Source of the DNA: Oscillospiraceae bacterium
Lineage (GTDB): Bacteria > Bacillota > Clostridia > Oscillospirales > CAG-272
Length of the DNA: 64,000 bases
Assembly: GCA_015063745.1 (NCBI GenBank)
Contig: SVTO01000002.1
Location: 20,882-84,881, forward strand
Direction of reading: 5' to 3'
Part shown: positions 3,790 to 57,767 of the stretch, in pieces
Position numbering within the stretch: the stretch's first letter is position 1
Layout of the letters: every line of letters starts with the position of its first letter
Notes under the pieces: generated by a model
Database searches by the model: none
The model's input: only the letters and a program-made list of their open reading frames with translations
What the model was told of the DNA's origin: nothing
Program-made: the position numbers and the translations under genes

Positions 3790-4983
3790 ATGGAAAGAAG
3801 AACAGGTACGATATCCAGAGGCATCCGCTGCCCCATCATTCGTGAAGGCGATGATCTCGTTCAGATCGTCACTGACAGCGTACTGGAAGCAGCCGCCTGT
3901 GAAGAATTTGCACTCCGTGACCGTGATGTAATCTGCATGACCGAATCCATCGTGGCAAGAGCACAGGGTAACTATGCCTCCGTGGATGATATTGCCGCAG
4001 ATGTAAAGGCAAAGTTCGGCGACAATACCGTTGGTGTTATTTTCCCCATTCTGTCCAGAAACCGCTTCTCCATCTGTCTGAAGGGTATTGCCAGAGGTGC
4101 AAAAAAGATCGTTCTGATGTTAAGCTATCCCTCCGATGAGGTTGGTAACGAACTGGTTTCCCTGGACAAGCTGGACGAAGCCGGTGTGAATCCCTACAGC
4201 GATGTGCTTTCTCTGGAAAGATACAGAGAGCTGTTCGGCGAGAATCTCCATCCCTTCACCGGTGTTGACTATGTTGCCTACTATCAGGAACTGGTCAAAG
4301 CGGAAGGTGCCGATGTAGAGGTCATCTTTGCCAATGATTGCAGAGCCGTACTGAACTACACCAAATGTGTACTGAACTGCGACATTCATACAAGAGCAAG
4401 AACCAAGAGACTGCTGAAGGCTGCCGGTGCGGAAATCGTATTCGGTATGGACGAAATTCTGCGTGAACCCGTCAACGGAAGCGGCTGCAACGAAAATTAC
4501 GGTCTGCTGGGTTCCAACAAGGCTACCGAAGACTCCATCAAGCTCTTCCCCAGGGAATGTGGAGATCTGGTATTTGCCATCCAGAATCTGATTATGGAAA
4601 AGACCGGCAAGCACGTGGAAGTAATGGTATACGGTGACGGCGCATTCAAGGATCCCGTCGGCAAGATCTGGGAACTGGCTGACCCCTGTGTTTCCCCCGC
4701 ATACACACCCGGTCTGGAAGGTACACCCAATGAAGTCAAGCTGAAGTATCTGGCTGACAACGATTTCAAGGCACTGAGCGGCAAGGCTCTGCAGGATGCG
4801 ATCGCACAGACCATCCGTGCCAAGAAGGCGGATCTGGTAGGTGACATGGCATCCCAGGGTACCACTCCCAGAAGACTGACCGACCTGATCGGATCCCTCT
4901 GCGACCTGACCAGCGGTTCCGGTGACAAGGGTACGCCCGTTGTTCTGGTACAGGGTTACTTCGATAATCTGACTGCTGAATAA
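3790..4983 (+). CDS. CofE/FbiB-type F420-0:L-glutamate ligase family protein
   Basis: The 397-aa product belongs to the family of coenzyme F420-0:gamma-glutamyl ligases. The signs are the start GTISRGIRCPIIREGDD, the DRDVICMTESIVARAQG segment (family pattern GDVxxVxxxxVSxAxG) and the nucleotide/metal region from about residue 200 to 330 (VYGDGAFKDPVGKIWELADP). Members are common in Clostridia that are not known to make F420, so the real acceptor is uncertain; glutamylation of another cofactor or peptide is possible. The gene stands alone, with its own consensus promoter at 3663 and a strong terminator. The ribosome binding site is weak. No F420 biosynthesis gene is seen nearby. Confidence 0.8.
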   Translation: MERRTGTISRGIRCPIIREGDDLVQIVTDSVLEAAACEEFALRDRDVICMTESIVARAQGNYASVDDIAADVKAKFGDNTVGVIFPILSRNRFSICLKGIARGAKKIVLMLSYPSDEVGNELVSLDKLDEAGVNPYSDVLSLERYRELFGENLHPFTGVDYVAYYQELVKAEGADVEVIFANDCRAVLNYTKCVLNCDIHTRARTKRLLKAAGAEIVFGMDEILREPVNGSGCNENYGLLGSNKATEDSIKLFPRECGDLVFAIQNLIMEKTGKHVEVMVYGDGAFKDPVGKIWELADPCVSPAYTPGLEGTPNEVKLKYLADNDFKALSGKALQDAIAQTIRAKKADLVGDMASQGTTPRRLTDLIGSLCDLTSGSGDKGTPVVLVQGYFDNLTAE

Positions 4984-4993
4984 ACAGAATAAC

Positions 4994-5045
4994 AAAACGG
5001 CTTTCGGCGGATGATAATATTCCGACCGGAAGCCGTTTTTTTTAC
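4994..5045 (+). terminator. Rho-independent terminator
   Basis: AAAACGGCTTTCGG pairs with CCGGAAGCCGTTTT, followed by a T run, 11 bp after the CofE-like stop codon. Confidence 0.85.
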
Positions 5046-55595: not shown

Positions 55596-55644
55596 TTGAC
55601 AAATCACTCTTACAGGTGTAAGATATATATGTCTCACAGCTGTA
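55596..55644 (+). promoter_or_regulatory. BlaI-type autoregulated promoter with two operators
   Basis: TTGACA (55596) and TAAGAT (55619) are 17 bp apart. A dyad TACAGGTGTA (55611-55620) overlaps the -10 box, and a second, CACAGCTGTA (55635-55644), lies 24 bp further on. Both fit the TACAnnTGTA operator of BlaI/MecI repressors, the second with one mismatch. Confidence 0.8.
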
Positions 55645-55704
55645 AGAGTACCTTGGCGGAGGAAAATCCGTCATGCAACAATCCATAAAACGGAGGAAAA
55701 AGAT

Positions 55705-56070
55705 ATGTCCGGACAAATTGCCATCACGTCGGCGGAGCTTGCGGTTATGCAGGTTTTATGGGAAGCCGGCGGACCGCTGAAAATTCAGGAAGTATGGGAG
55801 GGACTGCCGGAAGCCGGGTGGAAGTACAACACCGTCGGCACACTGCTGCTGCGTCTGGAAGAAAAAGGCGCTGTCCGCTGTGAAAAAATCGGCAAAAACC
55901 GTACCTACACCTCCCTGCTGGACAAAGAGGAATATACCAAAGATCAGACCCGGGGCATCATCGACCGGTTCTACCACGGTTCCGCAAAGGAGCTGGCTGC
56001 CGCGCTGATGCGTACGGAAAGTCTGACGGCGGAGGATATTGACGAACTGCGGAAGGAATTCGGCTTATGA
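55705..56070 (+). CDS. BlaI/MecI/CopY family repressor
   Basis: The 121-aa protein has the winged-helix N-terminus of penicillinase repressors (ITSAELAVMQVLWEAGG, then WKYNTVGTLLLRLEEKGAV) and a C-terminal helical dimer region (residues about 78-121). It should repress its own promoter through the two TACAnnTGTA-type dyads. It overlaps the M56-M23 gene by 4 bp (ATGA), the usual arrangement in which the membrane protease inactivates the repressor on a cell-wall signal. Confidence 0.92.
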   Translation: MSGQIAITSAELAVMQVLWEAGGPLKIQEVWEGLPEAGWKYNTVGTLLLRLEEKGAVRCEKIGKNRTYTSLLDKEEYTKDQTRGIIDRFYHGSAKELAAALMRTESLTAEDIDELRKEFGL

Positions 56071-57767
56071 CCGGCGTTTTTCTGAATCTGACGGCCTGTG
56101 CGGCTCTCGGATCCCTGTGCGGTGCGGTGTTTTATCTGCTGCGCCCCGCAACAAGGCGGATTCTGGGACCGGAGAACCAGTACCGGCTTTGGATTCTGCT
56201 GTTGATTCTGTGGGTTCTGCCCCTGCGGTTTACGCTGCCCGAAACGGTGACGGAAACCTTTGCGGAGAATATACCCGGGGATATTTTTGCGGTATCCGAT
56301 ACATCGGGAATCATCCGGTCGGAGGATCTGTATTTCGATCTGCCGACTGACACGGACCGGGTTGAGCCGGCACGCACGGAAAACACCCATCCGGTGTTGT
56401 CTGACGGAGTGGTACTGTCCGTTCTGCGGTGGATCTGGGCGGCGGGGATACCCATTGCCTTTCTGATGCAGATCGTCCCCTACATACGCTTCCGCAAAGT
56501 GCTGAAACATACGTCCCTGCCCCTCGGTTATGCCGTATCCGACGGGATGAAAATACCTGTCTGCCGCAGTTTTGCGGTGGATTCACCCATGGTGGCAGGT
56601 ATTTTCCGACCCGTGCTGTATCTGCCGGAGCGGGACTGCAGCAAAGAAGAGTATACCTGCATCCTGCGGCATGAAATGACCCATGCGAAAAGAGGGGATA
56701 TCCCTCTGAAATGGTTTGCCGCGGCGGTGCGCTGTCTCCACTGGTGGAATCCTCTTGTCCATCTCACCGTATGCCGTTTTGCCGAGGAATGTGAGATTTC
56801 CTGCGACTTCCGGGCGGCGGCGGATATGGGTGAGAACCAGCGTAAGGTTTACATGAAGCTGCTTCTGGATCTTGCGGAAGCGAAATGCCGGAAACGGGAA
56901 TTTCTTTCCACGGGATTTTCAGACAGCAGAGCATTTCTGAAACGGAGACTTATGATGATTCAAAACGGAAAGAAACAAAAAATAATGACCACCGTCCTGT
57001 CATCCCTTCTGCTGGCAGGCCTGTCTGCCGGTCTGATCTATGCGGGCGGTGTGTTCAGGGATTCCCTTCTGCCCGAAGAAACGGACGCACAGGAGAATCT
57101 GCCCGTAGTGGAAACCCTGACGGAAGCAGACACCGCGGAAACCTGTGCCGTATCCGGTACATCTGCTGCGGAAACTCTGGAATCTCTCAAGGAAGAATTG
57201 ACAAAACTACAGCAGGAAATCGGTGAAATACAGGAAGAAACGGAAGCTGCGGTGGGAACGGATGAGGAATACGAAGCAATCGCTGATGACGTTGTTTATC
57301 AGCATGAAGAATTCGCAGAAATCGTTGATGACATTGTTTATCAGGACAGTGAACCCGTAATGCATGAGGAAATGTCCGTGGAAATTCCGGCTATTCTGAA
57401 ACCGGATCGGGATGTCAACCTCCCCTTTGGTATGTCAAACAATTACGGCAAGGAATACTTCCATAACGGTGTGGATTTCAAAGGTGAGGAAGGCGAGGAC
57501 ATCCCTTCCGCATCCGCCGGTGAGATTGTGTACATGGGTTACGAATACGACTACGGCAACCTGATCATTGTAAAAAGCGGTGCATTCGAAATCTTCTACG
57601 CCCACCTGTCCGGCTTCAACCCATCCCTGCAGGAAGGCGATATTGTGGAAATCGGCACCATTCTCGGTGAAATCGGCCATACCGGCGCCACCACCGGCCC
57701 GCACCTGCATTTTGAAATCCGCCTGAACAGCCAGCCGATCGATCCCGCATCCCTCTGGGCAAAATAA
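56067..57767 (+). CDS. M56 (BlaR1-type) membrane protease fused to an M23 peptidase domain
   Basis: The 566-aa protein begins with membrane helices (residues about 5-26, 41-56, 117-139) and the M56 zinc motif HEMTH (202-206) that faces the cytosol in BlaR1. A further helix at about 309-330 leads outside. In place of the beta-lactam sensor domain it has an acidic linker with the repeated unit E.A.ADDVVYQ/E.VDDIVYQ (about 405-440) and an M23 endopeptidase domain with HNGVD (His466, Asp470), YAH (His513) and HLH (546, 548). M23 domains cut or bind peptidoglycan. The fusion suggests sensing of the wall itself. Confidence 0.88.
   Translation: MTGVFLNLTACAALGSLCGAVFYLLRPATRRILGPENQYRLWILLLILWVLPLRFTLPETVTETFAENIPGDIFAVSDTSGIIRSEDLYFDLPTDTDRVEPARTENTHPVLSDGVVLSVLRWIWAAGIPIAFLMQIVPYIRFRKVLKHTSLPLGYAVSDGMKIPVCRSFAVDSPMVAGIFRPVLYLPERDCSKEEYTCILRHEMTHAKRGDIPLKWFAAAVRCLHWWNPLVHLTVCRFAEECEISCDFRAAADMGENQRKVYMKLLLDLAEAKCRKREFLSTGFSDSRAFLKRRLMMIQNGKKQKIMTTVLSSLLLAGLSAGLIYAGGVFRDSLLPEETDAQENLPVVETLTEADTAETCAVSGTSAAETLESLKEELTKLQQEIGEIQEETEAAVGTDEEYEAIADDVVYQHEEFAEIVDDIVYQDSEPVMHEEMSVEIPAILKPDRDVNLPFGMSNNYGKEYFHNGVDFKGEEGEDIPSASAGEIVYMGYEYDYGNLIIVKSGAFEIFYAHLSGFNPSLQEGDIVEIGTILGEIGHTGATTGPHLHFEIRLNSQPIDPASLWAK

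Follow-up and report, generated by a model that had tools for sequence, protein, structure and literature searches.

What might a BlaR1-type membrane protease respond to when a peptidoglycan-peptidase domain stands where its penicillin-binding sensor would be? The question is raised by an open reading frame at 56067-57767 (+) of the window, by which is meant the whole stretch of 64,000 nucleotides analysed here. According to the ORF listing it encodes a single M56-M23 fusion protein of 566 aa. Pfam finds Peptidase_M56 at residues 16-298 (E 3.7e-41; 141.7 bits against a cut-off of 31) and Peptidase_M23 at residues 465-560 (E 5.4e-25, far over the curated cut-off), with no further domain. The fusion gene and the repressor gene that precedes it are laid out as follows.

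55705-56070, + strand: BlaI/MecI/CopY-type repressor, 121 aa (Pfam PF03965, Penicillinase_R, E 1.4e-30)
56067-57767, + strand: M56-M23 fusion protein, 566 aa, its start overlapping the blaI stop (ATGA)
56112-56960, + strand: M56 (BlaR1-type) integral-membrane metalloprotease domain, residues 16-298 (Pfam; alignment to BlaR1 structure 8exp)
56982-57038, + strand: last transmembrane helix, about residues 306-324 (hydropathy; AlphaFold helix 301-333; BlaR1 topology, PMC9834060)
57057-57401, + strand: acidic stalk, predicted extracellular, residues 331-445 (net charge -30; predicted helix 366-396)
57262-57344, + strand: two tandem 14-aa acidic repeats within the stalk (repeat search)
57459-57746, + strand: M23 (LytM/lysostaphin-type) peptidoglycan-peptidase domain, residues 465-560 (Pfam; PDB sequence matches; fold match)

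The blaI stop, TGA at 56068-56070, overlaps the fusion-gene ATG at 56067, which bears out the translational coupling to a BlaI repressor gene that the original prediction had proposed.

Anatomy of the fusion protein

By its Pfam match and its alignment to the BlaR1 structure 8exp, which spans residues 169-307, the protein is a member of the M56 (BlaR1-type) family of membrane metalloproteases. The cryo-EM study of BlaR1 names H201EXXH, E242XXXD, D210, Y261 and R294 as functionally important (PMC9834060), and every one of these has a counterpart in the fusion protein: H202, E203 and H206, E243...D247, D211, Y262 and R294. The HEMTH motif is where it had been claimed to be, at H202-H206. Eight relatives share the M56 catalytic residues without exception, and likewise D211, Y262 and R294. 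BlaR1 cleaves itself between S283 and F284 (PMC9834060), a position matched here by G283-F284. By analogy with BlaR1 the protease site is expected to face the cytoplasm and the C-terminal part to lie outside the cell, and hydropathy agrees. In an AlphaFold model (mean pLDDT 64) most of the M56 core and the M23 domain are confident, and the stalk is of low confidence except for a moderately scored helix at 366-396.

Judged by sequence, the protein is equally a member of the M23 family. The motifs H(x)nD and HxH are present, and the complete site that had been predicted (His466, Asp470, His513, His546 and His548) is located as described; by analogy H466, D470 and H548 would be the zinc ligands and H513 and H546 the catalytic residues. 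A PDB sequence search with this domain matches M23 peptidases, and a fold search returns the LytM domain of DipM, EnpA, lysostaphin and LytM, with TM-scores of up to 0.83 on the target. The fold search also matches EnvC and SpoIIQ. These two proteins act without M23 catalysis.

The domain does stand in the place of a penicillin-binding sensor. Pfam detects in the fusion protein no penicillin-binding domain of the kind in which a serine (SXXK) is acylated, and the match to the NCBIfam BlaR1 models is confined to residues 11-315, at 82 bits where the cut-off is 400. Lacking such a domain, the protein is not a BlaR1 beta-lactam sensor; direct sensing of beta-lactams was rejected on this ground and on the BlaR1 model scores.

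The repeated acidic linker said to join the two parts is visible as a stalk whose residues 331-445 have a net charge of -30 and which contains two 14-aa copies (DEEYEAIADDVVYQ / HEEFAEIVDDIVYQ). These are encoded by 41-nt copies at 57262-57302 and 57304-57344, 42 nt apart and 85% identical.

An orthologous fusion is found in a congener (genome G142, that of the window being G000; loci L012/L055). It is 56% identical overall and retains the whole design. Conservation is highest in M23 (64.5% identity, against 59.9% for M56), and the stalk is 35.2% identical. For the M23 part dN is 0.26 and dS 1.48, which indicates purifying selection, the estimate being rough with dS above 1. Because a same-genus orthologue retains the whole design and its M23 part is under purifying selection, the design is not a product of chance; a chance fusion or an assembly error is ruled out by this orthologue together with the independent occurrences described below. 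The stalk of the orthologue (residues about 320-440) has a charge of -38 and repeat-like stretches of its own, different from those in the window. That it is equally acidic with different repeats suggests that the length and charge of the stalk weigh more than its sequence.

Promoter, operators and the likely regulon

Upstream of blaI the following elements can be read.

55596-55624, + strand: sigma-A-type promoter TTGACA-17-TAAGAT of the blaI operon, a 10/12 consensus match, conserved in the congener
55610-55621, + strand: operator 1, perfect inverted repeat TTACAGGTGTAA, in the promoter spacer and overlapping the -10 box
55634-55645, + strand: operator 2, TCACAGCTGTAA, 24 bp downstream of operator 1
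55692-55696, + strand: ribosome-binding site GGAGG of blaI (sequence reading)

The repressor is also matched by the NCBIfam BlaI/CopY/MecI models, with scores under their cut-offs, and is 89% identical to its counterpart in the congener. There the 34-bp twin-operator block is identical and the promoter is kept, despite the divergence of the remaining intergenic DNA. An adjacent BlaI-family repressor with an inverted-repeat operator of its own, the mark of a BlaR1/BlaI-type switch, is found here.

Searching G000 and G142 for the twin operator gave one instance per genome, at the fusion operon. As it is seen nowhere else in either, the system probably regulates mainly itself, as far as this can be read from a genome (G000) about 82% complete and with single-site targets possible. 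A wider regulon was rejected: single-operator sites, allowing up to one mismatch, numbered 46 against 105 for a reversed control pattern, and so are not enriched. Two single BlaI-like operators are common to both genomes, one upstream of a sigma-70-like gene (L061:1501-1512, L080:1501-1512) and one upstream of an AraC-type regulator gene (L102:1550, L109:1579). Neither was accepted as an operator, since both lie in intergenic DNA conserved well beyond the site.

Among the other fusion-bearing genomes described below, a scan finds paired inverted repeats of altered sequence before blaI in G044, G333 and Subdoligranulum variabile; such pairs are seen by eye in G302, G108 and G191, and G055 and G039 are ambiguous. 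A small regulon of this kind has been described in Clostridium thermocellum where, in the available part of the report, two BlaI regulators are concluded to act only at two inverted repeats and one of them controls its own operon only (PMC8457756). The present system resembles this BlaI_1845/BlaI_0696 pair in having two inverted-repeat pairs at its own promoter and an apparently very small regulon. It differs in the sequence of the repeat and in that, as far as the same portion of that paper goes, the C. thermocellum operon holds other genes and its M56 partner is annotated as BlaR1, with an M23 domain not reported (PMC8457756).

Recurrence, origins and catalytic state of M56-M23 fusions

A survey of M56 plus M23 architecture in Clostridia, as the original prediction had suggested, finds the pairing to recur, with at least 14 distinct M56-M23 proteins among the matches listed. 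Fusions occur within the same family (genomes G000, G142, G044, G039, G055, G191, G108, G151, G658 and G630), in other families of the class (G302, G333), on a plasmid-labelled record of S. variabile (OY725877.1) and on a human faecal contig labelled phage (MT837794.1), the last with two M23 domains in tandem (L241, 1-1689). A blaI-type gene lies upstream of every fusion whose upstream sequence was read, MT837794.1 beginning inside the M56 gene. A class-wide profile search returned mostly M56-only proteins, with two loci being fusions, and 18 further regions that were examined held no M56-M23 fusion. Of 25 genomes sampled from the genus only 2 have the fusion gene, which is therefore dispensable or accessory; the upstream genes are shared by both carriers.

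A tree of the M56 domain was built from nine fusions and 50 other proteins. It takes five changes to place the fusions on it, four or more of these being forced by well-supported branches, and a single origin, with all fusions in one clade, is rejected (AU p 2.6e-65). The M23 tree has less power and agrees with several origins, a single clade being weakly rejected (p 0.02). On these phylogenies the M56-M23 fusions form at least four lineages and the pairing arose several times. Such repeated independent joining suggests a functional combination rather than an accident.

For one lineage a source of the M23 domain can be proposed. In S. variabile a secreted coiled-coil M23 protein is encoded immediately downstream of the fusion gene, and the M23 domain of the fusion is sister to that of this neighbour (100/99 support, M23 tree). 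The relationship suggests that the fused domain was recruited from the neighbouring hydrolase gene and, with the secreted hydrolase encoded 3' of the fusion, would tie the output of the operon to wall hydrolysis. A tandem duplication of ~115 bp interrupts the M56 part of the same S. variabile fusion (L140, OY725877.1, about 4811-5042) with an in-frame stop; it may reflect a mistake in assembly or a genuine allele that is broken or switchable.

The region outside the membrane varies elsewhere too. In the G302 and G333 proteins (L117 and L122, respectively) the protease and the M23 domain are separated by a copper-amine-oxidase-N-type domain (PF07833). Proteins closely related to these fusions match the PF07833-type region and not the M23 end, so that the outermost part of such proteins appears swappable.

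The genome of the window has four further BlaI-M56 pairs, on contigs C81, C32, C1 and C62 (loci L001, L002, L004 and L005). The C-terminal regions of these M56 proteins have no Pfam match beyond M56, three of the loci being cut or partial; they are possible sensor domains of unknown kind.

Of the 14 fusions among the matches listed, 10 have a complete M23 site, namely those of the window, G142, G191, G055, G658, G151, G630, G039 and S. variabile and the second domain of MT837794.1, whose first domain is without one catalytic His. In the other four the site is degenerate: G108 (N,N,H,N,G), G044 (H513Q), G302 (H546N) and G333 (H546F). The G108 fusion lies at a locus conserved in its genus, the same as that of the site-complete G191, G151 and G658 proteins, beside a gene that by eye is metA-like. 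As these four keep the domain without its full site, cutting cannot be required everywhere. The intact site thus appears to be usual and losable while the domain is retained, and the predicted activity to be usual, not universal. In a first sample dead M23 domains made up 4/10 of the fusions against 1/16 of standalone proteins (one-sided exact p about 0.055), and an excess of dead domains in fusions is not claimed.

A candidate wall-gated switch and its alternatives

The locus shares with Staphylococcus aureus BlaR1/BlaI (8exp-8ext; PMC9834060) an M56 domain with HEXXH, EXXXD and the D, Y and R residues, a Phe at the autocleavage position, a final membrane helix that runs on into an extracellular C-terminal domain, a paired BlaI and an operator at its own promoter. 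It differs in ending in an M23 peptidase, where BlaR1 ends in a class-D-beta-lactamase-like penicillin sensor, in its long acidic stalk, and in an operon without a beta-lactamase or PBP gene. LytM, lysostaphin, EnpA and the LytM domain of DipM have the same M23 fold with its H(x)nD and HxH motifs; unlike the fusion, these secreted or envelope proteins carry no signalling protease in their chain.

Whether this architecture was already well characterised had been left as a question, and the answer is divided. The pair has been catalogued: an M23 review, in its available part, lists M56 among the companion domains of M23, puts combinations with other catalytic domains at <1% of M23 proteins and states that a role of M56 in peptidoglycan cleavage is not shown (PMC9662197). 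A BlaI partner, operators and sensing are not discussed in that part of the survey (PMC9662197). As to function, no functional or experimental study of M56-M23 fusions was found in the open literature, most subscription journals lying outside the search.

We consider it somewhat more probable than its opposite that the locus is a self-contained switch of BlaR1/BlaI type in which the penicillin sensor has given way to an M23 peptidoglycan peptidase, the receptor itself probably being the induced wall hydrolase. On its anatomy the system would work like BlaR1/BlaI. BlaI dimers on the twin operator would shut the bicistronic operon, and the M56 protein would cross the membrane, its protease site on the cytoplasmic side and its M23 domain held in the wall by the long acidic stalk. 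From its family it is plausible that the M23 domain senses or cuts peptidoglycan; it would bind or cut accessible stem peptides, or lose contact with the wall during stress. That event would shift the membrane helices and trigger the protease, and M56, by analogy with its family, would then cleave BlaI and derepress the operon. The main product induced would be more receptor, a positive feedback in which the receptor would double as wall hydrolase. It is the likeliest induced product because the twin operator is unique in the genome, and may combine the roles of sensor and effector, within the limits set by the 82% completeness of that genome and by possible single-site targets. A further-reaching version, which we advance tentatively and hold to be somewhat doubtful, is that the sensor reads peptidoglycan by cutting it and induces the transcription of nothing substantial besides itself. 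It would then be a hydrolase switch, wall-gated and self-amplifying, that arose repeatedly when M23 domains were attached to BlaR1-type proteases, in one case apparently from a hydrolase gene next door.

The M23 domain could instead be an effector only, the protein being a regulated, membrane-anchored wall hydrolase whose M56-BlaI part controls its own dose; the signal would be perceived outside this domain, whether by the extracytoplasmic loop that joins helices 2 and 3, by the membrane or by a different protein. A twin operator at its own operon alone, a complete site in 10/14 fusions, the secreted hydrolase directly downstream in S. variabile and the better conservation of M23 than of M56 between orthologues would all fit such a protein. 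Still, we think it unlikely: M23 occupies the sensor-domain position of BlaR1, where the other M56 proteins of G000 have unrelated C-terminal regions, and the four fusions lacking the full catalytic set have kept the domain. Those same degenerate sites (G108, G044, G302, G333), with the fold matches to EnvC and SpoIIQ, are what a receptor that merely binds peptidoglycan or a partner protein would lead one to expect, its remaining site residues being relics or serving in binding. This reading appears quite improbable, given that all five residues are present in 10/14 fusions, including that of the congener, whose M23 domain has diverged by 35%. An ordinary beta-lactam resistance sensor, acting indirectly and answering only to wall damage from beta-lactams, would make use of the classic beta-lactam module of M56 and BlaI and of an M23 substrate that changes with such damage, but is very improbable for a protein with no penicillin-binding or transpeptidase domain, a match to the NCBIfam BlaR1 models far under cut-off and in the N-terminal part only, and no beta-lactamase recognised by eye among the ORFs near the operon.

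Many M56-BlaI pairs occur in bacteria outside the beta-lactam paradigm; the genome of the window alone has five. If the fusion is indeed a BlaR1/BlaI-type switch with an M23 peptidase as its sensor, it would link wall turnover directly to transcription through proteolysis of a repressor, and what orphan BlaR1 homologues sense would become a question with a defined class of ligand.
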